Assembly: GCF_026210795.1 (NCBI RefSeq)
Contig: NC_089456.1
Span: 746,501-810,500, forward strand
Direction of reading: 5' to 3'
From: Rhizophagus irregularis
Taxonomy: Eukaryota > Glomeromycota > Glomeromycetes > Glomerales > Glomeraceae
Length of the DNA stretch: 64,000 nucleotides
The notes below the pieces were generated by a model that ran no database searches, was not told the DNA's origin, and saw only the letters and a list, made by a program, of their open reading frames with translations. This document shows positions 2,536 to 34,990 of the stretch, in pieces (the first letter of the stretch is position 1; each line of letters begins with the position of its first letter). The position numbers and the translations under genes are program-made.

Positions 2536-3144
2536 TATTATAAGAGCTGTAAATTAGAAGTTTTTTTTTCACATCACATTATGTAACGATATCTTAAATC
2601 TATATAATTAAAAAAAAGATTGTGAGACATGTAAACGTTTAGATTACCTCGTATTTGTACTAATCCTAATAAGTAAAATAGATCACTAATGTATTTATTA
2701 TTTTGAGACAAATTTTTTTGTGACGAATCGCTAAACAATTGTAACATTCACACGATTCATTAATATTTGCATAAATTATATATAACATTACTCTATTTAT
2801 CTTTTATATGATAATGACAATAAAAACCTAGACCTATTCACATGACAAATAAGGCATAATTACTTTCTTAGTTTATGATAATAACAGTAAAAAACTAGAC
2901 CTATTCACATTGCAAATAAGGCATATCATTACTTTCTTAATTTGATGGCCAGCTTCCATTCCCGGACAGGGCTGCGCTAGTATCATCTGAAAAAAAAATT
3001 TTTTATTTTGGGGTACACATGCTAATGATCTTATGCACCCTGTTTTCATCACAAATAAATACACAATTGTTTTAACTTTTTAACTAGCGTGTAAATATTT
3101 TTATTATTTTTGAAAAAAGAGTAAAATGAGTGGTGAGTTTTTTT
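2536..3144. other. intergenic with a short tandem duplication
   Basis: No gene is seen. The only structure is the imperfect duplication listed at 2808-2943. Confidence 0.5.
2808..2943 (+). repeat. two-copy imperfect tandem repeat, about 67 bp
   Basis: Two adjacent copies share AACTAGACCTATTCACAT-like and CAAATAAGGCATA-like blocks, each followed by TTACTTTCTTA. The second copy carries a few substitutions and a small insertion. Confidence 0.75.
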
Positions 3145-3965
3145 GTATAAAGGGTTTTAACCTTCTTTGATAAGGTTTTTTATATTGCTCTTTTTCATTT
3201 ATGTCGCTGTTGCCTTTTTAATAAAGGTTTTTAACCTTCGTTGATAAGGTTTTTTATGTTGCCTTTTTTGATAAAGGTTTTTTATGCCGCCTTTTTTGAT
3301 AAAGGTTTTTATGTCGCGTTTTCTTTTTATGTTGCCTTTTTTTGATAAAGGTTTTTTATGCCACCTTTTTTGATAAAGGTTTTTTATGTTGCCTTTTTTG
3401 ATAAAGGTTTTTTATGCCGCCTTTTTTGATAAAGGTTTTTATGTCGCGTTTTCTTTTTATGTTGCCTTTTTTTGATAAAGGTTTTTTATGCCACCTTTTT
3501 TGATAAAGGTTTTTTATGTTGCCTTTTTTGATAAAGGTTTTTTATGCCACCTTTTTTGATAAAGGTTTTTTATGTCGCCTTTTTCTGATAAAGGTTTTTT
3601 ATGTCGCCTTTTTTGATAAAGGTTTTTGATGTCGCCTTTTTTGATAAAGGTTTTTTATGTCGCCTTTTTCTGATAAAGGTTTTTATGTCGCGTTTTCTTT
3701 TTATGTTGCCTTTTTTTGATAAAGGTTTTTTATGCCACCTTTTTTGATAAAGGTTTTTTATGTTGCCTTTTTTGATAAAGGTTTTTTATGCCACCTTTTT
3801 TGATAAAGGTTTTTTATGTTGCCTTTTTTGATAAAGGTTTTTTATGCCACCTTTTTTGATAAAGGTTTTTTATGTCGCCTTTTTCTGATAAAGGTTTTTA
3901 TGTCGCCTTTTTCTGATAAAGGTTTTTATGTCGCCTTTTTCTGATAAAGGCTTTTTATGATGCCT
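3145..3965 (+). repeat. minisatellite of about 28-bp units with a 130-bp higher-order period
   Basis: About 28 units of the form TTTTTTGATAAAGGTTTTTT plus ATG(T/C)(T/C)GCC run head to tail. Unit variants alternate (TTGCC, CACC, CGCC, TCGCC). A distinctive short variant, GTCGCGTTTTCTTTTTATG, recurs at about 3313, 3443 and 3686. The blocks beginning at 3301 and 3431 are near-identical for 130 bp, so whole multi-unit blocks were duplicated. The array sits upstream of a small hypothetical gene. Confidence 0.92.
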
Positions 3966-19677: not shown

Positions 19678-20444
19678 ATTAATTAAAATTCTTATTAAAT
19701 TCTATAAAATAACCTAATAGAAATGTTTAGTACATGTTATTCTATCATTTTATCAGTTTAGTTTTTTCTTTTTACTATTCAATTTACAATTTATAAAAAT
19801 TTGAAGTCATATAATATTAGTGTGGTTTATAGATGACGGCCACCATATATATAAAATTTTTTTGCAATAATAGTTTTTTACATGAAAGATTATTTTGAAA
19901 AATAAAGATATTATAATATTAGAGTTTCTTAATAAATATTTATTTGTCATCTTTTTTTTTATCTTTCAAAGTTGTTTACTATTCAGATTTAATAACGTTA
20001 GTTTGTATATGTATAGAAGTTTTAAGCCTTATATTTATATTATTAAGTATTCCTAAGGTTGTTAAACTATCATTAAATTTAATAAAACAGTTAAAGTATT
20101 ATTTTTAAATGGTTAAGTAAATTCTATCCCCTTTCATTTAACTATTTTTTAATTTTATAATATGAAAATAATATTTTTTATAAATAAAAAAATAAAAAAC
20201 ATAAAAATTTCTTTAAATTACTAATGTAAAAATTGTGTTTAAATAATCAATAAAAAAAGTTTTTGATGTAATTTATTTATATACAGCCAACTCTCTTTAT
20301 AGTCACATATTTAGAACAGTTTATATTTGGTGATTATAAAGAAACGTGACTATATAAAAAATTTTTTATATTTGTATATCATAATTCCAGCTAAAAATTA
20401 ACATAATTTTAGTCAGAATTATATTTAAAACTTTATTGTATCAT
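19678..20444. other. AT-rich intergenic with a mariner-like end
   Basis: No gene. TACAGCCAACTCTCTTTATA at 20282 resembles the terminal sequence of other TA-flanked elements in the window (GTTGACTGTA at about 37694, CAGTTGACC at 45478). Confidence 0.4.
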
Positions 20445-20840
20445 AACTCTGCCAATATTAATCATAGAGAGATAATCTTACTGCCATTCAATTTGTCTTA
20501 ATAGGACAATTCTAATAGTATAAAATACATCGAAATCTAATCACTAGATTAATTTTTAAAATTAAAAAATATTAATGGTTTTTATGTAATAACTCTGCCA
20601 ATATTAATCCTAGAAAGACAATCTTACTACCATTTGATTCATCTTGATAAGACGAATCTAATGGTATAAGATATATCGAAATCCAATCACTAGATCAATT
20701 TTCAAAATTAAAAAATATTAAATGGTTTTTAAGTAGTAACTCTGTCAATATTGATCATAGAGAAATGAGTTTACCACCATTCGATTTGTCTTGATGAGGC
20801 AATTTCAATGAGCTATTAATCATTATTTTATAATTACTAA
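20445..20840. repeat. three tandem units of about 146 bp containing the palindrome core motif
   Basis: Units start at 20445, 20591 and 20738, each with AACTCTG(C/T)CAATATT. Each then has a reversed copy of the core motif (TTACTACCATT...GTCTTGATAAGACGAATC type) and ATC(A/C)AATCACTAGATCAATT. A further diverged core lies at about 20955-21010. The same core is found inside the palindromes at 7627-8184, 37813-39291 and 40674-41872. Confidence 0.8.
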
Positions 20841-21267
20841 GTACTGAGAAATTTAGCAAAATGTTAAATGACGCAGTAAACGTAAATCAAGAAATATTAT
20901 AATGCTGATATTTAGCATTTTGTTGAATAACTTATCAGCCAGTAATTGTGAAAGGATAAAACTATCACCATTCAATTCATTTCAGTAAGATGATTCTAAT
21001 AAGCTATGTTACACCTTTGTACAATTATTAGATGTCAAATTATTTAATATATTTTTTATATGGTGTTAAAGTAAAAATGTGGCACAGTAATTTTATGTAG
21101 ATCATTTTGTAGATCATTTTGTAGATCCCTTGATTTTTTTTTGATTTTTTTTGATTTTTTTGATTTATTTGATAAATTTAATAAATTTGATTTATTTATT
21201 TTATTAATTTTATTTATTTTAATTGTTATATTTCATTTATTTAATATATTTATTTTATTTTATTTAA

Positions 21268-21477
21268 GGGATGGCCAGAAATGACGTAATTTAAATTTTA
21301 GGATTTTTGCCCTTGCACTCATACTATGTCATCATTCATTTTAGGAAATGTAAAATTAAAACACAATTCTGGTTAGAATTATATTAACTATAAGTGTCCC
21401 CAAAAATGGAAGGTGTGTAAATCGTCATGGTCTTAACTATACCCCTAAAAGAAATAACGTCATTTCTGGCCATCCCC
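21268..21477. mobile_element. 210-bp MITE
   Basis: Terminal inverted repeats are GGGATGGCCAGAAATGACGT on the left and, reversed, GGGGATGGCCAGAAATGACG on the right. The interior is non-coding. It sits in low-complexity TTTATTTTA sequence, so the target duplication cannot be read. Confidence 0.8.
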
Positions 21478-21705
21478 TTATTTATTTTATTTATTTTATT
21501 TATTTTATCAAATATTTTTAATTTTTATTTTATTATAAATAGTGTTAGGATTTGCCAAGCTAAAGGGGTAGTAAGTCAATTAGTTTACGAATAGTTAAGA
21601 ATTGTATTATAGTTTTCGAATTATATGAAAAGAGTATTATTTCCAGTAGTATAATTCAAGATAGTTAATTTTGCAACTAAGAGATTATCTATACTTTTTT
21701 GTCTA

Positions 21706-22814
21706 TGAGATCCCCCAATTCCCTCTGTCATCAATTTACAGAGTTGCCACATCGAACGGGCATTCTCATGGTCGAACGAACGAATAAACGAACGAACGAA
21801 CAATCAAACGAACAAACAAATAATCAACAGCATAATTAACAATCAACATAATCAGCGAACAACATACAACAACATATAACGGCAATATTCTTGATTCACA
21901 ACATAAATAGCGTTAGTAATATAAAACATCAAACAACATAAAATAAAAATTAACTTCTCGAAATTTCCCCAAATTATATCCACTTTTACCTTTAATTTCA
22001 AACTTCGATAGCTCTCGCTACGAATTATTACTTTTCAAAAACGTATATTTAATTCATCTTAAATTTCCATTTTATTCAATTAAAATTAATTCCGCGAACA
22101 TTAATTAAAGTTTAGGCGAACCTATTACCTTTAATTAATATTATACTTCATTAACCACTAATTAAATTTAACTTATATTTTTATTGAGTTCGTGGATTTG
22201 TTTAACTGTGAATTACTCAATTCCGCTCTCTATATATACAATTTTTATGCTACTTTCTATTCTATCTATATACTATCTTTTATGTTCTTTTTACATATTA
22301 TCTTTGAACTATCTTTCTAATATACTATCTATATTTTAAATACGCTATCTTTTAATATGCTATCTTTTAATATGCTATCTTTTTATATATGTTCTTTTTA
22401 ATATATTATCTTTTACGTTCCATCTTTATACTATCTTTTTATATTATCTTTTACATTATTTTGTGTTCTTTAATCTTTCTGACATTATTTTATATGTTCT
22501 TTTAATTCGCTTTATGTGTTTTGCTTATAATCTATCTTTTGTGGCTTATAATTATTCTTTCTTATCGTTCTTATTGTTAAAGATTGCTAAGCCGCAATTG
22601 ATCGATTCTATTTATCCTATTGGTTCCTTAGTCAATCATTCAATAAATATTACATCATGTAGATCATTACTCTTCCTAAATGTTTATCCTTTTCGGCTAA
22701 TTATTTATCCATCCACGCCAATTCATAATCAATTTGTTCGTTCTTAATATTTGGCAATTACATTTGGTGATTGAATTTTATCATCTTTTCATGCTTGATA
22801 TTCGACCGTTTACA
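21706..22814 (-). repeat. 3' LTR of the gypsy element
   Basis: On the plus strand it starts TGAGATC and ends GTTTACA, so in element orientation it is TGTAAAC...GATCTCA, with the usual TG/CA ends. It includes a (GAAC)n-like run near 21774-21812 and repeated CTATCTTTTA words near 22260-22450. The partner LTR is at 31512-32621. Confidence 0.95.
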
Positions 22815-22829
22815 TTATCCCCCTCTTCG
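22815..22829 (-). other. polypurine tract
   Basis: Read on the minus strand, GAAGAGGGGGATAA lies directly before the TGTAAAC start of the 3' LTR. This is the expected plus-strand priming site. Confidence 0.8.
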
Positions 22830-22889
22830 CTATTTGTGACCTCACAAATAACTTTGATAGAATCGAATTCGTGTCTTATCCATAATATT

Positions 22890-23220
22890 TTACTCGAATC
22901 GAACTCGGGTCTTATCGAATACCTCTTTTCCTTTAATTACTATTTTTGGTGTAAATCTCCCTCGATCATAAAATTTCTTTAACCATTCTCCATTTTGTGG
23001 AGTCTTTAGTATTCTTCCATCCAATTCTTTGAGTTTATATGCCCCATTTCCAAATTCTTCGTGAATTAAATATGGTCCTTTCCATTTGTTCTGTAATTTT
23101 CCAGACCATTGTTTTTCTCTCCACGCTTCGTATAATAATACTTTTTCTCCTATTTCAAATTTAGGTTTCCTAATTCCTCTTTTGTCATGTTGTTGTTTTT
23201 GTTTTTCTTGAGCCTTCTTC
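22890..23220 (-). pseudogene. integrase C-terminal part with GPY/F module
   Basis: A shifted frame after the integrase core reads KFEIGEKVLLYEAWREKQWS and LQNKWKGPYLIHEEFGNGAY. The KWKGPY motif marks the GPY/F module of Ty3/gypsy integrases. The frame ends VRFE then TAA at 22890-22892. No chromodomain is seen after it. One base must be skipped near 23215 to join it to the core. Confidence 0.85.
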
Positions 23221-24116
23221 CACGTTCTCTTTCATTTTTCTTCTTATTACTGGTAGCTCCTCAATTAGTATTTTTACTCTATCAGCTAATGTTATCTTGT
23301 TTTCATCTTTGTCTAACGGTAATTTCGCTCTCCTTCCGTACGTTGCATAAAAAGGTTTAATTCTTGTTGACGATTGCTTCTTTGTTCTGTATGCAAATAA
23401 TACGGATGGTATATGTTTATCCCAGTTTTCTTCCCCTAATTTGGCTAATCCTTCGCATAAAGTTTTATTGAATCTTTCGACCAAACCATTTGTTTGTGGC
23501 CTATATGGTGTACTTAATCTATGATTTATCCCACATCTTTCTACTAATTCTTCCATCATTTTATTGTTAAAGTGAGTCCCTCTATCGCTAATTATTTTCT
23601 TTGGACATCCATGTCTACAAATTATGTCTCTCCAAATAAATTCTACCACTTCTTTTCATTGTATTTTTAACTCTATGCGGCCTCGGGCCATTTTGTAAAA
23701 TAATCCATTGCTACTACAATATACTTATTTCTTTTTTCTGTCTCTTTTAATGGTCCAACTATATCTATTCCAATCATCTCGAATGGTTCATTTATCTTTA
23801 TCGGCATTAATTCGTTCTTTCCTCTTGGTTTTCCTCTCATTTGACAATTCCAACACGTTTTTACATATTCTTCTACGTCTTCTTTCATATTTTTCCACCA
23901 ATAATTTTCTTTTATTCTATCTAATGTCGCTTCTACTCCAAAATGCCCTGATAATTCATTATCATGCATCATGTACATCAATCCCTCGTATTCATAATCC
24001 CTGATTACTCTAAATTTGTTTTGTCCTTTCACTCTATATAAAATTCCCTCTTTCAATTCATACTTATTTTCTTTTTCGATATTGTCTATTATACTCTTGT
24101 AATTATTTTCTTCCAT
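23185..24116 (-). pseudogene. integrase (zinc-binding and DDE core), broken
   Basis: Two frames, 24116-23673 and 23649-23185, cover the zinc-binding HHCC region (H-DNELSGH-F, CWNCQ) and the catalytic core. The DDE residues can be placed as D in MIGIDIVGP, D in IISDRGTHFN and E in NGLVERFNKT. Two small indels near 23672 and 23656 separate the frames after YFTKWPEA. The enzyme would insert the cDNA copy into host DNA; this copy cannot be made as one protein. Confidence 0.92.
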
Positions 24117-24146
24117 GATATTTCCTAGCTGTTTTTGTTATTTGTT

Positions 24147-24780
24147 CTATGTTTTTCTCCATTTCTCCACCTCTTTAAATACTTTTCTCCAACTACTATT
24201 GTCATTTTTAACTTTTACTCGACTGTATCTTTTGGTATCTTTGTACACACTCTGATTTTCTTCAAACATTTTAACCATGTCCAAATATTCATCCTTCTTT
24301 AATGTTGGATATGATGATTTTTCCGTTTTCTTTGTTTCTCTTCCAATGTAATTTTTCCAACATACGTCGCCATCTTTTTCTAAAAATATCACTATTGATT
24401 TATCTATTGTTTCTTTCAATCTGAATATTTCTTTTTCCATCTCATGATTTCCATGTGGAGTAATTAATCCTCTGTCAAAGCTTTTCGTCTTTTGATAATA
24501 ATATTCACAATATGGTGATTTGTCTAAAATTATTATATCTGTATCTTCGTCATATTCTAACATTCTCTGTTTATTTGTTCTACTACTTCTTTTCTAAATT
24601 TCCATTCCGTCTCCATCTTTGATTCATAAAATTCATCTTTGTCTTTTCTTCTTCTTTTATAAGTATTGAATCTTACTTTTAATCCTTGTTTTTCCCATTC
24701 TTTAATTAAATTTTCGTACTATACTTGTTTTTCCTAATCCGTCTACTCCGTCGATTATTACTATTTCTGGTTGATCCTCT
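24147..24780 (-). pseudogene. thymidylate-kinase-like (dNMP kinase) domain within pol
   Basis: The frame that encodes RNase H continues, seven residues after ADALSRLL, into PEIVIIDGVDGLGKTS (P-loop at 24749-24723). This matches the dTMP kinase Walker A form (EGxDGxGKT/S). After a one-base shift near 24717, LIKEWEKQGLKVRFNTYKRR and FRKEVVEQINRE follow. After another shift near 24566 come DTDIIILDKSPYCEYYYQK (the DRxxxSxxAYQ region), IDKSIVIFLEKDGDVCWKNY (the strand before the LID), an Arg/Lys-rich LID-like segment (IGRETKKTEKS) and a C-terminal helix ending 24147. About 190 residues fit a complete small kinase. The usual DR is DK here. The fusion is seen directly in one open frame; the substrate is inferred. 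Confidence 0.8.
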
Positions 24781-25847
24781 ACTATCTTTAATAACCTACT
24801 TAATGCGTCGGCGTTCGTATTTTCTTTTCCCGACCTATGTATTACTTCAAAATTATATTGCTGTAATTCCATTACCCATCTTGCTCTCTTTCCTTTCGGT
24901 ATCTTTGCATTCATTAATCCTTTTAATGCACTGTGATCTGTTATTACTTTAAATTTTCTATCGATTAAATATTTATGAAAATGTTGAATTCCCCAAACTA
25001 TTCCTAAACATTCCAATTCTGTTATCGGATAATTCTCTTCTGCTGGTAATAAACTTCTACTTGCATATGCTATTACTACTTCTTTTCCTTTTTCATCTTT
25101 TTGGCTTAATACTGCACCTAATCCTTTTCCTGATGCATCTGTTACTAATAAAAATTCTTTCTTCCAATCTGGATGTCGCAATATTGGATATTGTATTAAC
25201 TTTTCTTTCAATTTTTCAAACGCTTCTTGTTGTTCTCTTCCCCAAATGAAAGGTATTCCCTTCTTTCTCAAATCACTTATTGGTCTTGCTATCTTTGAAA
25301 AATTCTTCACAAATTTTCTGTAATATGAACAAAGTCCTAGAAATGATCTTACTTCTTTCACTGTTGTTGGTGCCTTCATTTCTTTTATCTTTTCTATCTT
25401 TTTATCGTCTGGCCTTAATCCATCATTTCCTACTATATGTCCTAAAAATTCTATATTTCTTTCCAAAAATCTACATTTCTTTAATTTTATTATCAAATTA
25501 TTCTCCCGTAACTTCTTTAATACTTTTTCCACATGTTCCATATGATCTTTTAAATTTTCCGAATATATCATAATATCATCGATATATACTACCACAAAAT
25601 CGTTTATGTATTCTTCCAGTATTTCATCCATTAATCTTTGAAATGTTGCTGGTGCATTCGTTAAACCGAACGGCATTACATTATACTCAAATAATCCTTT
25701 CGAACATACAAATGCTGTCTTTTCTTTGTCTTCTTCTTTCATTTCTACTTGATTAAATCCTGCCGCTAGATCTATACTTGAAAACCATTTTGCTTTTCTA
25801 TATTTGTCTAATAATTCATCCATTCTTGGTAAAGGAAAACTATCCAT
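24702..25847 (-). pseudogene. reverse transcriptase and RNase H
   Basis: A 381-codon frame starts within the RT palm and finger region (DSFPLPRMDELLDKY, KWFSSIDLAAGFNQVEM). It contains NVMPFGLTNAPATFQRLM and the catalytic VVVYIDDIMIYS (YxDD). RNase H follows with TDASGKGLGAVLSQ, ELECLGIVWGIQHF, VITDHSALKGL and the terminal NTNADALSRLL. Then the kinase P-loop begins in the same frame. The N-terminal RT residues lie in the preceding frame (25888-26223) and need one shift near 25970-25850. These domains copy the RNA into DNA and remove the template. Confidence 0.95.
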
Positions 25848-25887
25848 TATAGTTATCTTATTTAACTTTCTGTAATCAATGCAAAAT

Positions 25888-26223
25888 CTATATTTTCCTG
25901 TTTTCTTTCCTGCTAATGTAACAGGTGAACTCCATGGACTTTTTGATTTCCTTATCCTTCCCCTGTCTTAACAATTTATCTACTTCTTCGCTTATAAATT
26001 TTGCCTTTTCATCTGTTTCTTTATATCTTCTTTGCTTTATTGGTTCTACCCCATCTTTTATTTTTATCTCATGCTGCGCTGCTTTTGTTCTTCCTTCTAT
26101 TTCCTCATCGTATTCCAAAATATCTTGGTATTCTAATAGTAATTTTACCATATTTTCCCAAATTGGTTCTTCTACCTCCCCTATACTTAGTTTTTGCATA
26201 AATTTTTCACTTGGTTCGAGCAT
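25888..26223 (-). pseudogene. RT N-terminal segment
   Basis: This frame reads VEPIKQRRYKETDEKAKFIS and EEVDKLLRQGK, the region just upstream of the RT fingers in Ty3/gypsy elements. It loses frame near 25970; the SPW-type motif and the CIDYRKLN segment continue in the next frame up to 25850. Confidence 0.85.
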
Positions 26224-26258
26224 CTTTTCCGTCTCTCTCTCTTCAGAGCCAAGACTCT

Positions 26259-26762
26259 CTATTTAAAATTCTGGTGCATTTTGAATACCTCTCCTTCATC
26301 GTTACTTTCATATTCTTCATCGTCCTCACTCTCCTCACTTTCATATGCTACTTCCCTTTCGTATCCTACTGGAATCGTTATTATTTCTCCCTGTTCTTCT
26401 ATTCTTAAGGTATGATCTTCAAAATTTATTTTTGCATTATACAACTTCCATATGTCATTTCCCAGAATTAGATCCTCTTCTTCTGAATCGATTACTTCAA
26501 CTTCTTTCAGTATCTCTAATTCATCTTTGTATCTTAAAGTTATATTTGCCTTTCCTAACGCTGCTATCTTTTGCCCATTTGCTATTGTACATCTAAATTT
26601 ACTTTTTCCAAATATAGGTATATTCAATCTTCTTCTTAATTTATCTGTTATCACACTTACTGCTGCTCCAGTATCTATTATTACATTCACTAATTGATCT
26701 TCAACTTCTAATTCTGTTCTCATTGCTGTAGTTCTCTTTTCTTCATTTTTCATAGTTCCCAC
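26259..26762 (-). pseudogene. retropepsin-like aspartic protease
   Basis: The active-site motif VNVIIDTGAAVSVIT (DTGA) and the second-half ILGNDIWKLYNAKI identify a retroviral-type protease. An in-frame TGA at 26774-26772 separates it from the upstream segment 27041-26772, where TGG would be expected. A Glu/Asp/Ser-rich linker follows before RT. Confidence 0.9.
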
Positions 26763-26771
26763 CGAGTGTAG

Positions 26772-27532
26772 TCAATTTTTCTCATTTACACTTCTTGGCT
26801 TATATGTTCCTTCCCTCAATTGTTTATGATACTTAGTATTCTCATTTGTTAATTGTCCAAATGTTATATTCGCTCTACAATTTTTCACGTCTCCCACAAT
26901 GTCATAAGGTGGTATTCCATCAGTTAATCTCGGTCCATATTCTCTGGGCTTTCCTGTCCCTGATGGCTTTGTTCTAACCCAATTTCCAAATTCGTCTTGC
27001 CGCATTCCAGGGTAAAATGCTTTGCCTTCTTTTGTGAACATTGGTTTATAAAATCTTCCATCTTTTGTGTCAGTCGCCGACCATAATTATAATCTTCTGG
27101 TCCTATTGGATTATCCCAATTTTGACTATCTTTGTATACATTATTTTGTTCTGTCCTTTCGGGCGTATATCTTGGTGTTGTTGTTCCACTTGGTATTTCT
27201 CTATCATCCATTCTATTTCCCGCTTCTCTTAATTCTTCTTGTAAATTTCCTTCTTCATTATTATTTTTATATCCCACTACTGGATTCGTCCTTCTTGTTT
27301 GTCTTCTTGTCTTTACTGCGTTATCTTTTGCGTATAATTCATTATGATAATTTAATTCCCTATCTTCATAATCATCGTAATAACCTTGTGTATAATACAT
27401 TTCGTTATAGTGTGGTTCCTCGTATCCATATTCATCATATTCTTCTTGGTCATCATATTCGTCCATCATATTCACTCCTACATTCCTTCTTTTCTCTGGA
27501 CACTCTCCCTGAATAATGACCAGCTCTACCAC
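26772..27532 (-). pseudogene. linker between gag zinc knuckle and protease
   Basis: Frames 27532-26924 and 27041-26772 encode an Asp/Tyr/Glu-rich linker (DDQEEYDEYGYEEPHYN) and a conserved-looking block (GKAFYPGMRQDEFGNWVRT, PRLTDGIPPYDIVGDVKN). A one-base shift near 27060-27080 is needed to join them. Confidence 0.75.
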
Positions 27533-29900
27533 ACGTATAGCATGTCGGTACTCTTTTTTGGAATGACTGATTTCTTTGAATTGGTTGATTTCTTTGCATT
27601 AGTTGGTTTCTTTGCATTGGTTGGTTTCTTTGTGGCAATCGCCTATAGCTCTGACTCGCTAAATTTCTTAATCTTTCATTCTCATCTTCTAACATCTTAA
27701 TTTGTAACTTCGCAAAACTGTCCGCTAATTCATCTACACTTACCCCTTTATTATTCCTTACATTCCCTTGAACAATAGGTTCTTGTCTTCTTTGTTCATT
27801 ATTAATTTCTTTTGGTTGTACTTTATCTGTTAATGCTTCTAAACCTCTTTCTACGTTTTTTGCTATCTGAAATGTTGCATTTAGATCTGCTGGATTTCCC
27901 ATTACTACGTCTTTAGTAAAGTCCGGTTTTAATCCTCTAATAAAAATTCTCTTTTGCTGATTTGCTGCTACTGCTGCATCACCTCCCGCTCTCTTTAACA
28001 TATACTTAAATCTCGTAAGGTATTGAGTTACATTCTCGTCTCCCTGTCTAATCTTTTCTAATTGTTCTAGCCATCTATCTTTAATTTCATCACTTGCATA
28101 CTTTCCAATTATTCTTACTCTTAATCTTAAATTATGATCTCCATTAACATTCCAATCGACAATATTTACTCCTTCAGTCTTTAACCAATCTGCTGCTCCT
28201 CCCATTAATTTCGCTTTTGCTAATCTAAATCTCTGTGCATCATCATTCCCTAAACCATTTGCTGTAAATGTCTCCTCAAATTTATCTGCCCATTCTTCTG
28301 GATCTTCTCCACTGGTACCATAAAATGCTGGTATTTCTACAATAGCTCCTCTATTTGCGTTTAAATTTCCTATCGCATTAGTATTCGCTTGAACTTCTCC
28401 TTGTAATCCTGTCAATGTTACTGGTGGTAATACTAAATTGTTCCAATCTGCCCCAATATCATGATTATACATAGTATTCATTAATGCTCTTAGATCTGCT
28501 CTGAGTTCATCTTTTGATGCTGCCATTGTTATCTTTGGTTTTATTGGTGGTACTGGTGTTATTGGTATTATAGGTACTTCCTTTGATTTTTTATTTTTCT
28601 CTTTACTTTTTGGTTTTTTACTTGAGCCAATTTCGGGTCCTTTTATATCCTCTTCCATTTCATCTTCATCATCTGTTGAATTTTCCTTTTCAATATCTTT
28701 TTCACATTCTATGCAGGTTTCTTTTCCAATTTCAAATTTTTTCTTTAATCTTTCAATTTCACATCTTCCGCATTCTTTTGTGTTTTCAACTCTCCATTGT
28801 AATATTTGTTCATCTAATTTTTCATCTTCAAGATTCCATATTGTTAAATATTTCTTCATAAATTCATATGTTGTTATTATCTTTGCGGTTACTCCAAATT
28901 TTCTTATTCTTTCAATTTCCGTTATTTCTACATCATATCCCATTCTTTTCAAATCCATTCTAATTATTTCTTCGAATATCTTTGTTGTTTCTGTTTCTTC
29001 AACATTATTAGATTCAATAGATTCATCAGATTCCTCATCTGACATTTCTTCATTTTTACTAATTGGTAAATTTCCTTCTTTCTCATCGTCTGTTTCTGTT
29101 ATAGTATAGCTTCTTGGTGTATCATCACTATCTGTTTCATCTATATTTAATTGTTCAAACCCTCTAATCTTATCATGAACTTTTTCAACTATCTCTTTTC
29201 TAATTCCCCAACCATGTTCACGAACTCTTATGTGCATTGTGTGCAACATTAATCTAATTTTTTGTTTGAACGCTTCTATCTTTTCTGTTGACTCATCTTC
29301 TTTTAATTCAGCTTCTTCATATAATATATTTTTGTATCTTCTAATAGTGCTATCCTTACATTCTATAAAATTTGTTATAGCTTCTTTATACCATTCATAA
29401 AATTCCCCAAATCTTATATTCACATCCCAATCTTCCAAAATATAACCATATCTTATTAATTCTTTGTTCCCTATCAATCTGTCCATTGTTTCATCTTCTT
29501 TATCATTTTCTATACAATCTCTCACGATTACTATTATTATTATCTTTAATCCTTTTTCTCTTAATACTGGTTGTTTCAAGTATCTTATCGATTCGACCAT
29601 TACATCTAATGCATCTCTAGTCCTTCCTTTTGTATAATTATTTCTTTCTTCACTATCTATACTTAATAAATTTAATAACGCTCTTACAGTTTCTGCATTA
29701 TAATCTCTTATCGTATATTCAAATTTTTGCAATATTTTCCAAAATTTCTTGAAAACTTCTGGTGTATCTCTTATTGGATAACATGTTTCACATGTTATAT
29801 TTTCTCCTCTTAATTCGTCTATATCTACATTTCCGATATTTTCGTCATGTCTTAATTTGTGGTTCTCGTAATTAACCCTCCAAGTTTCATACCATTCCAT
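27453..29900 (-). CDS. Gag with a long N-terminal extension
   Basis: An open frame of 815 codons. The C-terminal half is canonical Gag: FYGTSGEDPEEWADKFEETF and GAADWLKTEG of the retrotransposon gag (capsid) domain, then Gln/Arg/Pro-rich repeats (MQRNQ)n, then a CCHC zinc knuckle (CYTCGRAGHYSG). The last knuckle cysteine is reached only after a one-base shift near 27515. A Met at residue 459 (ATG 28526; MAASKDEL) is where ordinary Gag would be expected to start. The 458 residues before it are unusual: highly charged, with C37xxC40 and a C377xxC380-x15-C396xxC399 zinc-ribbon-like motif, and long acidic stretches. I do not recognise the extension. Gag forms the particle that packages element RNA. 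Confidence 0.88.
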   Translation of the reverse strand: MEWYETWRVNYENHKLRHDENIGNVDIDELRGENITCETCYPIRDTPEVFKKFWKILQKFEYTIRDYNAETVRALLNLLSIDSEERNNYTKGRTRDALDVMVESIRYLKQPVLREKGLKIIIIVIVRDCIENDKEDETMDRLIGNKELIRYGYILEDWDVNIRFGEFYEWYKEAITNFIECKDSTIRRYKNILYEEAELKEDESTEKIEAFKQKIRLMLHTMHIRVREHGWGIRKEIVEKVHDKIRGFEQLNIDETDSDDTPRSYTITETDDEKEGNLPISKNEEMSDEESDESIESNNVEETETTKIFEEIIRMDLKRMGYDVEITEIERIRKFGVTAKIITTYEFMKKYLTIWNLEDEKLDEQILQWRVENTKECGRCEIERLKKKFEIGKETCIECEKDIEKENSTDDEDEMEEDIKGPEIGSSKKPKSKEKNKKSKEVPIIPITPVPPIKPKITMAASKDELRADLRALMNTMYNHDIGADWNNLVLPPVTLTGLQGEVQANTNAIGNLNANRGAIVEIPAFYGTSGEDPEEWADKFEETFTANGLGNDDAQRFRLAKAKLMGGAADWLKTEGVNIVDWNVNGDHNLRLRVRIIGKYASDEIKDRWLEQLEKIRQGDENVTQYLTRFKYMLKRAGGDAAVAANQQKRIFIRGLKPDFTKDVVMGNPADLNATFQIAKNVERGLEALTDKVQPKEINNEQRRQEPIVQGNVRNNKGVSVDELADSFAKLQIKMLEDENERLRNLASQSYRRLPQRNQPMQRNQLMQRNQPIQRNQSFQKRVPTCYTCGRAGHYSGRVSREKKECRSEYDGRI

Positions 29901-31493
29901 CGTTGTAATCGTTCATCCAGAATCTTAACTAAAATCTCACCTCCTTTTATATTTATATTTCACTCTCATCGTTTCTATTTTCAATCTTCTATGTTTCTAT
30001 TTTCAATCTTCTAAACATTCTTTTATCTTTAAACAGATTGCTCCTTTCAATCTTTAAATTCCATCTTTCAGTTTTATATATTTACTACTCCATATTCTAT
30101 TATTAATTTTTACTGCGCCTTAAAATTTCAAAAATTTTTTCTAAGTTCACGATCTCCTCAGACTGCGGAGGTTTTTACCGCGCCATAAAATTTATCTTTT
30201 ATCACCGATATCCATAATTTCACATGTCACATTCTAAAATTTATCTCCTATCACCGTGATTCATAATTTCACTTATCACATCTTTTTGTCACCAAGATCC
30301 ATAATTTCACATATCACAAACTCCAAAATTTTCATAACTTTTAAAGTTCGCGAATTTCCAATCTTTCTTATCGTCCACATAAATCCTTCTTACTATATAT
30401 TCTATATTATATAAATTAATCTATGATACACAAAATGTCGTTCTTTTCAAATAAATATCCTTCTTTTCAAATAAATGTTCTTTTTCAAATAAATATTCCT
30501 TTTCAAATAAATGTTCTTCTTTTAAATAAATGTCCTTCTTTTCAGATTTTACTCTATTATTAAATACTGCACGTAATATTCATTATACGGCTCGTTAATG
30601 TGTAAATATCCTTCTATTTTATCTTCTTTTAACGGAACATTGTAATGAGAGCGTGAACTAGGACACTACACCAGGAACCCTCATCTGAAATGTAGCCTAG
30701 GACCTGTAACAATACAACGCATCCGTCTTTTTCTTCTTCCGTTGGCCGACTCGTCTCTTAACGGGTGAATCTAACCTTCCAAAATCCAGTTTCAAAAGTC
30801 ATCAGCTATCCATAAAACTCATCTAAACCAACTTATCTTTCCTCAAATTGGTGGACCTATACTGGGCTTATCTCTATCTTTTTCCCATTGGGTAAAAGCA
30901 TGATAGTTTACAGGTTTGTCCCATTTTATCCATTCAATGTTTCTTGATAGTAGGTGTCTTTACAATTTTCGTTCCCCGTCCCCAAAGCAATTTGCGCATT
31001 ATTGAGCTGGGTATCCAGATTTGACGTAACCCATACGTTATAATCCTTAATGTCGAAGAATAAAAATTTTCCAATTTCGAGCATTTATCCAAAATTCAAA
31101 CTCAGAGGTAACCCATACCACACAGATGAACCCCAGATAATACATTGGTGTTCTCCCATTATTAATCTTTATTCCAAAATTCATCTTTCACTTCCACATC
31201 TCCTTATGAAATTTCTCAGGTACTTTATTCCCGAAAGAAATATTCTTGTGCTTTCTATCAATTAAGTGATTACTTGCACAACAACAAACTCCAATCTTTC
31301 ACCTTTTCAAGTTTTTAACTCAATTAAATCCTTATTGATTTATTGGTTCCCTTTGAACTCGTCAAAACCTGAAATCTAAAAATAAATTCTAAAAATAAAA
31401 TATTGATTAATAATACCTATCAGTGACTTACTAACGAAATTAAATTTTCATATTCATTATAATAATAATCATGTGATGATGATCATTTCCTTT
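29901..31493 (-). other. 5' leader of the gypsy element
   Basis: About 1.6 kb between the 5' LTR and gag without a convincing gene. It holds roughly 60-bp imperfect repeats near 30170-30340 (ATCACCG-T/A-ATTCATAATTTCAC type) and five short repeats of TTCTTTTCAAATAAATGT type at about 30444-30545. A 71-codon plus-strand frame at 31050 looks incidental. Confidence 0.6.
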
Positions 31494-31509
31494 CTCGGAG
31501 CATGCACCA
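31494..31509 (-). other. tRNA primer-binding site
   Basis: Plus-strand CTCGGAGCATGCACCA ends in CCA, exactly as the 3' end of a mature tRNA. On the minus strand it reads TGGTGCATGCTCCGAG, two bases (TA) inside the 5' LTR. I could not assign the tRNA. Confidence 0.85.
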
Positions 31510-31511
31510 TA

Positions 31512-32621
31512 TGAGATCTCCCAATTCCCTCTGTCATCAATTTACAGAGTTGCCACATTGAACGGGCATTCTCATGGTCGAACGAACGAATAAACGAACG
31601 AACGAACAATCAAACGAACAAACAAATAATCAACAGCATAATTAACAATCAACATAATCAGCGAACAACATACAACAACATATAACGGCAACATTCTTGG
31701 TTCACAACATAAATAGCGTTAGTAATATAAAACATCAAACAACATAAAATAAAAATTAACTTCTCGAAATTTTCCCAAATTATATCCACTTTTACCTTTA
31801 ATTTCAAACTTCGATAGCTCTCGCTACGAATTATTACTTTTCAAAAACGTATATTTAATTCATCTTAAATTTCCATTTTATTCAATTAAAATTAATTCCG
31901 CGAACATTAATTAAAGTTTAGGGCGAACCTATTACCTTTAATTAATATTATACTTCATTAACCACTAATTAAATTTAACTTATATTTTTATTGAGTTCTG
32001 TGGATGAGAACTGTGGAATTACCTTGAATTCCGCTCTCTATATATACAATTTTTATGCTACTTTCTATTCTATCTATATACTATCTTTTATGTTCTTTTT
32101 ACATATTATCTTTGAACTATCTTTCTAATATACTATCTATATTTTAAATACGCTATCTTTTAATATGCTATCTTTTAATATGCTATCTTTTTATATATGT
32201 TCTTTTTAATATATTATCTTTTACGTTCCATCTTTATACTATCTTTTTATATTATCTTTTACATTATTTTGTGTTCTTTAATCTTTCTGACATTATTTTA
32301 TATGTTCTTTTAATTCGCTTTATGTGTTTTGCTTATAATCTATCTTTTGTGGCTTATAATTATTCTTTCTTATCGTTCTTATTGTTAAAGATTGCTAAGC
32401 CGCAATTGATCGACTCTATTTATCCTATTGGTTCCTTGTCAATCATTCAATAAATATTACATCATGTAGATCATTACTCTTCCTAAATGTTTATCCTTTT
32501 CGGCTAATTATTTATCCATCCACGCCAATTCATAATCAATTTGTTCGTTCTTAATATTTGGCAATTACATTTGGTGATTGAATTTTATCATCTTTTCATG
32601 CTTGATATTCGACCGTTTACA
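31512..32621 (-). repeat. 5' LTR of the gypsy element
   Basis: Almost identical to 21706-22814 with the same TG/CA termini. The main difference is a rewritten patch of about 35 bp after TTATTGAGTTC (near 31990-32030). Transcription would start here and run leftwards. Confidence 0.95.
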
Positions 32622-33100
32622 TCGTATCCAAAATTTTACATTATTTTAATAAAAACCTATTTTCTTTAACTGAATATTTAATGTTATTTCACGTGATTAT
32701 TTGTTATTAACTTAAGACTCTCCTATTAAGTTAAACTCCAGTTAAATTGTTAAAGCGTTAAAGTTTTTCAGTCAGCTTTAATCATTGACAGAATAACAAT
32801 GACTATGATTATAAATGGTTCTTTTTAATATAAGATTTTTAAGGATAGATGTGATAGTGACTATAAATAAATTGTGACTATATAGGATAGATTTTAATAA
32901 TAAAGTGTTTTGAACATTCAACTGGCATGACTACAGTGTATAACAAAAAAAATTGGAATTAAAAAATTATTTGTAACACCATGATGATCGCACCAAATTA
33001 TATGTAAAATAGCTTATTCAAAAGCTGAAAACCTGTAGATTTTATAAATATTAAATTAAAATGGTGTTTAATGCAGTAATTTTTTATAATTATAAATTAT
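32622..33100. other. flank between the LTR element and a MITE
   Basis: No gene. Repeated TAGTGACTATAAA and GTGACTATA words near 32850-32885 resemble ends of TA-flanked small elements elsewhere in the window. Confidence 0.4.
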
Positions 33101-33239
33101 AGTGCTTGTAGCGATTAATATTACAATTATTAACCAATGCTAGCAGATGATTGGTAAGGATTTGGCCACGTAGTGGCCAAATCTGTCCAATCAGAATGCA
33201 GCATTGGTTAATAATTGTATATTTATCAACGCAAGCACA
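33101..33239. mobile_element. 139-bp inverted-repeat element (MITE)
   Basis: Outer arms pair GTGCTTG..GCGATTAATATT with the reversed GTGCTTGCGTTGATAAATAT. Inner arms TACAATTATTAACCAATGCT are perfectly inverted, and the centre is GGCCACGTAGTGGCC. The whole could fold as one hairpin. No clear target duplication. Confidence 0.8.
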
Positions 33240-33405
33240 ATAATGATATTATCGTGTGACATTATGATGTTTTATTTAAACTTTTATTAAACTCGAATTA
33301 AACTCATAAATTAAGCTTTTATCATTTTTTTTCTTTATCCAATTTCATTTCTCTCCATTTCTGACTCTCTTTTTTACACAAAACCTTTCTATTAATATTT
33401 TAAAG

Positions 33406-34990
33406 ATGCAAGATAACAAAGATAAACGACCTTGTAAGAAATTAAAGGTGAACTTTACTTATAAAAAGCCTACTGATGATGAAGCTTCCGCAATCTTATT
33501 GATAGTAGCCGATGTAAAAATACTGATTATTCAACTTCAAATTGGATACGAGCTTTGGAAAAATTTAGAACAGATGTTAATTATCAAGGATTGATTGAGG
33601 AAGTTGATACAAAAGAAGAATTAGAGGATCAGCTTTGTAGATTTGTTCATGCAATGAGAAAAAAAGATGGTTCTGAATATCATGTTTCTTCAGTTAATAG
33701 TTGCATGTTTGCAATAAATAAACATTTGAATAATAAGTCTGTCCTTTCAAAACCTATCAACATTATGGATAAAGATCAATATTACAAATTATGGCAGATT
33801 TTGAATGGTAAAGTTAAGAGTCTTGTGAGTCAAGGTCGTGGGGAGCGTAACGGTGCTGATGGATTTACTGAAGATGATCTTCTTCAGATTCTTGATCATC
33901 CAGCAATGTCTGGCAACTGATCCTGCCAGTTTATTATATAGGATCTTTTTTTTTAATGCTATTTTTTTAGGGTTAAGGGGAGGAGAACATTTCAATTTGC
34001 AGCTTAAAATTTTATACGAAGAAAAGACAAATATGGTGGATTTGATGTTATCATTTACAAATCAAAAACTAATCAACGCGGTGCCAATAATATTGAATCT
34101 CAAGGTGATAAGTTATACATTCCCGAAATACCTAGTATCATTGAAATGTATGAAAATTATTTTACCAAACGTCCAACCCAAGCTGATCCACATTTTTATT
34201 TAAAGCCATGCAATATTAGTGAAGGTAAATATTAAAATTTTTTTTTTTTTTTGACAAATCTAATGTCAAAATTTTTATTATTTTTTATTTCATATTATAC
34301 AGTTGAATTTAATGGACAATGGTATCGCCATAAGCGACGTAATGCAAGAAAAATTAAATCCTTTATGAAAAAAATTGTTACCTTAACCGGAATTAACGTG
34401 GATGATCGCAAAATTAGTAACCATTCAGGTCGGAAAACGCTAGTACAAATATTAAAGCGACGAGGATTTTCAAATTCTTTGAATGATGGCAAGACACGAC
34501 ATAAGTCGAGTAGGCTGCTAAGACATGAAATAGTCCCAGAAACTGAAATTCAACGAAATAATGCTTTTAACCTTGTTGAAGCATTTGGTTTTAATAAAAA
34601 TAATATTCGATCAGGTAAAAATTTGAAATTTTTAATCATTAATAAATGACCTGCATTCTAATTTTCTTCTAGAAGAATCAATGGAACAATCAACTTTATC
34701 AACAGACAATTTCGTTGTTGCAAAATCATTGCTTAATGGTAATATTCTAAAATTTTATTCTATTTTTTGATAATCAATTTAACAAAATTGAACTTTTTCT
34801 AGATAATCGTGAAGTTATTAATTCGGCAAACAGTAATATTAAAGTTACAAGAAGGCCATTAAAAGATTTAAATGAAATTCAAGAAAATAAAAGTCAAAAT
34901 TTGGAAGAATTAGTTTCGAAATTAACAGCTGATAAAGTTTTTATCAATTCTGTTATTATTTTCAATAATAATCCTAATAGCCATAATTAA
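33406..34990 (+). pseudogene. Crypton-like (DUF3504-type) tyrosine recombinase relic
   Basis: The start (ATG 33406) leads into a core-binding region reached by a shift in an A run near 33519 (TDYSTSNWIRALEKF, HAMRKKDGSEYHVSSVNSC). Then come NAIFLGLRGGEHFNLQL, the Arg-I box, and after another shift DVIIYKSKTNQRG. Introns are plausible at 34225-34302, 34615-34672 and 34739-34802. The second exon block holds KISNHSGRKTLVQILKRRGF (HxxR box). The nucleophile region reads RHKSSRLLRHEIVP, where GHKSxxG...Y is expected, so the tyrosine appears lost. Cryptons and related DUF3504 genes move as DNA circles using such recombinases. Three or more frame breaks plus the missing tyrosine mark this as dead. 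Confidence 0.78.

Follow-up and report, generated by a model that had tools for sequence, protein, structure and literature searches.

The window analysed here, 64,000 nucleotides of Rhizophagus irregularis contig NC_089456.1 (positions 746,501 to 810,500; contig C28 of the genome that was searched), contains a Ty3/gypsy-type long terminal repeat (LTR) retrotransposon on the minus strand, in whose pol region a segment resembling a thymidylate kinase (TMPK) lies between RNase H and integrase. The parts of the element, given as window positions from its 5' to its 3' end, are as follows.

21704..32629, minus strand: whole Ty3/gypsy-type LTR retrotransposon, about 10.9 kb, recognised by the LTR pair and by gag, protease (PR), reverse transcriptase (RT), RNase H and integrase (IN) profiles
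31510..32629, minus strand: 5' LTR in element orientation, by alignment to the second LTR
27453..29912, minus strand: gag frame of 819 amino acids (Retrotrans_gag, E 7e-6; weak zinc-knuckle, E 0.0075)
26259..26771, minus strand: aspartic protease frame (PF13975, E 3.5e-9)
25431..25907, minus strand: RT domain (PF00078, E 1.8e-45), residues 21-179 of frame 25967-24702
24855..25244, minus strand: RNase H domain (PF17919/PF17917), residues 242-371 of frame 25967-24702
24705..24770, minus strand: kinase piece 1, beta strand and P-loop (GVDGLGKTS at 24723-24749), in the RNase H frame
24557..24718, minus strand: kinase piece 2, in a shifted frame, with the KRRR motif
24147..24593, minus strand: kinase piece 3, in a third frame, with DKSPYC at 24507-24524 and the LID-like CWKNYIGRETKKTEK at 24318-24362
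23673..24137, minus strand: integrase frame with zinc-binding domain (PF17921, E 4.7e-22)
23185..23655, minus strand: remainder of the integrase core (PF00665, E 1.4e-6; PF13683, E 9e-7)
22890..23231, minus strand: integrase C-terminal region (weak Tf2-1-like SH3 match, E 0.001, under its cut-off)
21704..22820, minus strand: 3' LTR, by alignment to the 5' LTR

The Ty3/gypsy order PR-RT-RNase H-IN is present in these frames as well as in other genomic copies, and the analysis confirms that the kinase segment between RNase H and integrase is real and extends beyond the single copy in the window. The latter is a frame-broken copy at about 24147-24770 on the minus strand, with RNase H upstream and integrase downstream. 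The initial annotation had described a single open frame holding RT, RNase H, the peptide ADALSRLL and a P-loop, IIDGVDGLGKTS, which we recover as 25967-24702 on the minus strand; the distance from ADALSRLL to the P-loop, put at seven residues, is actually ten residues before IIDG. Its continuation in the shifted frames 24718-24557 and 24593-24147, with LDKSPYCEYYYQK and IGRETKKTEK, holds as described, and the integrase frames 24137-23673 and 23655-23185 come next. A P-loop arisen by chance is ruled out, because the whole domain recurs within one RT-RNase H frame elsewhere in the genome (e.g. in the copies L003 and L011).

Four families of elements carry the kinase, A, B and C behind RNase H and D ahead of integrase. 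In family A, to which the window copy belongs (frames of about 706 amino acids), RT, RNase H and kinase share one frame that ends in a stop and is followed by the integrase open reading frame (ORF), which in L003 opens 51 bases beyond that stop. The frames of families B (779 amino acids) and C (777 amino acids) consist of RT-RNase H, about 75 extra residues and the kinase, with integrase in its own ORF, and in family D RT-RNase H terminates, after which kinase and integrase share one frame of 600 residues. An unbroken kinase frame was found in 63 of the 72 scanned loci, some genomic places having been fetched twice among the 63; the nine others are the window copy (L001), L068, L070 and six loci (L035-L038, L040 and L042) whose matches are partial or of another type. 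Among the 63, the kinase frame contains the RNase H end in all A and B rows and in the C rows save L066 and L069, and it contains integrase in the 16 family D rows. According to this frame survey, the position of the kinase between RNase H and integrase is constant and its fusion partner is variable. Annotated proteins show comparable arrangements, P0076 of R. irregularis being kinase plus integrase and P0079 and P0086 of R. clarus holding RNase H sequence, kinase and integrase within a single gene model.

The genome searched comprises 146.7 Mb on 32 contigs, and all counts from it are lower bounds since the search scores and lists only the best candidates. Piece 3 of the window kinase (148 amino acids) gave at least 151 matches as query, and an intact family C kinase gave at least 129 that span at least 200 of its 213 positions (hand count). 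At least 122 of these 129 near-full-length matches are free of in-frame stops, and the window copy is among the 7 that have them. With so many copies, most of them without an in-frame stop and intact ones present elsewhere in the genome, a kinase pseudogene confined to the window copy is ruled out.

A family D RNase H query led to two more groups, E (frames of 497 amino acids, 62-64% identical) and F (frames of 1453 amino acids, 59-60% identical), whose places are absent from the kinase matches listed. In L073 (E) as well as L075 and L076 (F), RNase H is followed by integrase with no kinase, the F integrase frames having been judged by eye; L074 was used in trees only. The outcome considered in the initial annotation, namely that other copies might lack the segment, consequently applies to these two related families in the copies read and does not apply to the window's own family, many copies of which have it. 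Because the copies read from families E and F do without the kinase, we regard it as an accessory domain. In the midpoint-rooted RT-RNase H tree, F splits from the rest on a supported branch; a single gain with loss in E and a gain after E diverged are both compatible with this tree and cannot be told apart, because A, C, D and E are unresolved in it.

Several details of frame organisation were seen alongside. In L003, L031, L032 and L073 (families A, B, C and E), integrase has its own ORF and is not part of a single pol frame. The interval from the kinase stop to the integrase start in L032 (family C) holds a small frame (about 3080-3235) that overlaps the integrase ATG, as if translation re-started, and in L031 (family B) the first ATG of the RT frame and the stop codon of the protease seem to overlap (about 599-608). 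In L033 (family D), the roughly 250 bases at 2046-2292, from the RNase H stop to the kinase frame, include a short frame led by an ATG. The extension of about 75 residues ahead of the kinase in families B and C has no Pfam match; it was considered as a remnant of a NUDIX domain, for which the alignment is suggestive and the profile comparison gives E 0.1 and a probability of 0.6%, and we do not claim this.

The kinase has evidently moved between families as a module, as judged from sequence identities and trees in which one B copy (L031) was used. Relative to family A, L031 is 88% identical in the kinase, 68% in RT-RNase H and 61% in integrase, and relative to the C copy L060 the values are 63%, 78% and 84%, respectively. 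Versus L072 they are 65% in the kinase, 88% in RT-RNase H and 83% in integrase. Correspondingly, B groups with L072 in the RT-RNase H tree (100/100) and with the C rows and L072 in the integrase tree (100/99), and it groups with A in the kinase tree (99/99). Other rows with 779-amino-acid frames have a similar identity to the window kinase piece, mostly 85-86%.

The check for purifying selection on the kinase codons that the initial annotation had proposed gave low ratios of nonsynonymous to synonymous substitution (dN/dS) within families; between-family pairs are near saturation at silent sites. The median dN/dS of the kinase is 0.061 in family A (29 copies, 393 informative pairs), 0.085 in family C (11 copies, 54 pairs) and 0.130 in family D (15 copies; 15 of the 105 pairs informative, 14 of these with L041). 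The respective medians for A, C and D are 0.039, 0.061 and 0.031 in RT-RNase H, and 0.052, 0.105 and 0.060 in integrase. Since a mere passenger would drift toward 1, these low values indicate that the kinase is retained by selection, under a constraint that is looser than that on RT-RNase H, about equal to that on integrase in A and C, and looser than both in D. Family A RT-RNase H has a pooled pN/pS of 0.44, with single pairs reaching 0.95, which does not fit the median of 0.039; 92 of the 342 pairs exceed 0.3, and the commonest rows among them are L002, L005, L006 and L007 with 23 pairs each. These four were retained in the analysis, and medians are therefore quoted. They are near-identical family A copies with an open kinase and a frame that is without the YIDD part of RT, and about 6 kb of C11 separates two of them.

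The frame changes that break the window copy would suit a relic, i.e., a decaying host kinase gene that a single copy had acquired. The many unbroken copies in four families, the low dN/dS, the relatives in R. clarus, R. diaphanus and Glomus cerebriforme and the fact that the host TMPK gene is not closely similar all argue against this, so that we give it almost no credence; the related suggestion of a structural relic is likewise disfavoured by the low dN/dS together with the conserved motifs.

With regard to the enzyme type, it had been considered in the initial annotation that no P-loop kinase hit might be obtained; both profile and fold searches give kinase matches, and the kinase interpretation is supported. 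Sequence profiles favour a thymidylate kinase: the phrog_761 thymidylate kinase profile matches 33 of the 34 kinase members, PF02223 matches 25 of them at E <= 1e-3, and the deoxynucleoside kinase (dNK) profile PF01712 matches 2 (best E 1.6e-4). In a six-frame search of the genome with PF02223, the retroelement-type kinases at C6:4454486 (27.7 bits) and C16:4182955 (28.4 bits with neighbours) exceed the curated cut-off of 27, the passes at the same cut-off also including host genes on C24 and C13. The residues of the P-loop, DKSPY and LID are among the best-conserved kinase positions, and KRRR is nearly invariant. The spacing in DKSPY[CS]EY[FY]YQ matches the TMPK substrate segment DR-x(3)-S-x(3)-YQ, with K replacing R, and the P-loop GVDGxGK is of the TMPK form, that of dNKs being GNIGAGK. 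Some such proteins are already labelled 'thymidylate kinase' or 'thymidylate kinase-like' in databases. The solved TMPKs listed have about 11-17% identity to the kinase domain, and when solved structures were searched by sequence, the matches were P-loop or chance ones, thymidylate kinases appearing at E 0.09-0.16 only.

The structure model, which has a P-loop kinase fold of the TMPK/dNK type, fits thymidylate and deoxynucleoside kinases alike. A deoxynucleoside kinase that converts deoxynucleosides to their monophosphates in salvage could have a similar role in raising local dNTPs; however, the matches of 25 and 33 of the 34 members to the two thymidylate kinase profiles and the form of the P-loop speak against it, and we consider this assignment unlikely. 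It can also be imagined that the domain is a pseudokinase that serves structure or nucleic-acid binding, e.g. by keeping RT or integrase inside the particle, as the fusion partner differs between families in the way that a tether might and the basic run KRRR is nearly invariant. There is a precedent in the bovine immunodeficiency virus, whose dUTPase-related gene is described as critical although its protein is without dUTPase activity (PMC4261571). A structural role would, however, not need the P-loop, DKSPY and LID residues that are among the most conserved, which makes a pseudokinase distinctly improbable.

The organism names among the relatives listed (66 in one search, the best 120 of 123 in another) are R. 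irregularis, R. clarus, R. diaphanus and Glomus cerebriforme, and the remaining entries are metagenome or unnamed proteins, many of the metagenome ones coming from short contigs. Two proteins on metagenome contigs, P0088 and P0121, combine an N-terminal NUDIX domain with a kinase that, across some 200 residues, is 46% and 37% identical, respectively, to that of family A; the NUDIX domain sets them apart from the retroelement kinase. Both also match the phrog_505 polynucleotide kinase weakly (E 2.6e-4 for P0121 and 1.6e-3 for P0088), which, together with the divergent substrate motif, could point to a kinase whose substrate is no DNA precursor and might instead be an RNA or the 5' end of a nucleic acid. 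As the same two proteins match the phrog_761 thymidylate kinase better (E 4.8e-9 and 2.4e-10), we think this very unlikely.

The host TMPK gene on C13 (L038), which has the usual signature, is no close relative of the retroelement kinase. As a source it was rejected, the two retroelement kinases compared with its exons reaching E 0.3 at best; P0121 gave one match to these exons (E 0.003, 22% identity), mostly outside its kinase. A second TMPK-like host gene, on C24 (L035, G000:C24:3288271-3288729), has a degenerate P-loop, GCEDTNTT, lies near an HMG-box frame and is possibly a pseudokinase. A tblastn search of phage records with the family A kinase gave no match, and scans of viral contigs and of prokaryote genome contigs with the kinase alignment and P0121 gave no relative, these scans using short exact peptide patterns that do not cover distant sources. 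Taken together with the NUDIX-kinase fusion of P0088 and P0121 and the distance of the host TMPK, this suggests that the donor may have been a NUDIX-TMPK two-enzyme gene, a lead rather than a result.

From our point of view, a Ty3/gypsy lineage of the Glomeraceae has probably captured a thymidylate-kinase-type kinase and retains it, at its place between RNase H and integrase, for the supply of deoxythymidine triphosphate (dTTP). Sequence comparison establishes its presence, position, purifying selection, conserved motifs and exchange between families; that it helps to supply dTTP for reverse transcription is the most likely role by analogy. The kinase would be produced joined to RT-RNase H in families A-C or to integrase in D and packed into the particle along with it, and there or nearby it would phosphorylate dTMP to dTDP, so that reverse transcription would be less limited by the host dTTP pool. 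The origin from a NUDIX-TMPK gene would be the weakest step. The broader proposition, that arbuscular mycorrhizal fungi harbour LTR retrotransposons with a deoxynucleotide kinase of their own, joined to RT/RNase H or integrase, captured from such a gene and traded as a module, as a second dNTP-supply enzyme beside dUTPase, has in our judgement an even chance of being right.

Several observations weigh against the assignment to a thymidylate kinase that serves the element. Its dN/dS is higher than that of RT-RNase H in A, C and D, and the family D value depends on 15 of 105 pairs, 14 sharing the copy L041. The family A kinases score 19.2-19.3 bits with PF02223, below the curated cut-off of 27, and AAA_14 (16 of 34 members), KTI12 (15 of 34) and NPHP3_N (15 of 34) also match at E <= 1e-3. 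In the fold comparison, for which the model is confident, TMPK ties with deoxynucleoside kinases, and Foldseek gives adenylate and UMP-CMP kinases similar E-values, though lower TM-scores. NTFKRRR stands where TMPKs usually have their R-E/F-P motif. Finally, the host already has a canonical TMPK gene, and two related families, in the copies read, do without the domain.

The proposal that dTDP might be produced within the particle follows the logic of the lentiviral dUTPase. In non-primate lentiviruses, this enzyme is excised from pol, where it sits between RNase H and integrase, and is, per most studies, critical in non-dividing cells (PMC4531489). It is an acquired dNTP-pool enzyme of a reverse-transcribing element, as the kinase probably is too, and both have an identical pol position (PMC4531489), whereas the dUTPase removes dUTP and makes dUMP, the Rhizophagus domain is a P-loop kinase of unrelated fold, and its host element is a fungal LTR retrotransposon with pol split over several ORFs. 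LTR retrotransposons of fungi, rotifers and planarians have a dUTPase-like domain between PR and RT, likewise a DNA-precursor enzyme in retrotransposon pol, although enzyme and place differ (PMC6431247). Orchid Ty3/gypsy elements, another lineage that fixed an additional catalytic domain, have an extra ORF with AlkB-type RNA demethylase activity; there the domain is an additional ORF, and the extra plant domains named in the cited text include no kinase (PMC9289625). With phage (phrog_761) and cellular (PF02223) TMPKs, the domain shares profile matches over most of its length, the fold, the P-loop and the LID regions, and it differs from them in having NTFKRRR for the usual motif and in sitting in retroelement pol. 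R. irregularis expresses its gypsy elements, which belong to its recent expansions, and in 12 of the 21 mentions from the same source, those covered here, the kinases are host gene families (PMC8647823). In open-licence papers, we found no description of a thymidylate or dTMP kinase in LTR retrotransposon pol or in Rhizophagus or Glomeromycotina elements. The kinase is a selected, modular accessory enzyme domain in retrotransposon pol that is new as an enzyme type, not in principle. It is already known that reverse-transcribing elements carry dUTPase, which keeps the dUTP/dTTP ratio low; a kinase making a dTTP precursor at the pol position of dUTPase would, if true, solve the same problem independently and point to nucleotide supply as a limit on retrotransposition in these fungi. 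The unbroken copies, the sister families without the kinase and the natural kinase swap make this question directly testable.

As to the remainder of the window element, no clean target-site duplication was seen in the flanks inspected, and Rfam gave no match within 20000-34000. The two LTRs are 98.2% identical across 1124 alignment columns, with 9 mismatches and 7 gap openings. Outside the element, at 20391-20829, a 146-base unit occurs three times in adjacent copies, units 2 and 3 being 73% and 60% identical to unit 1.
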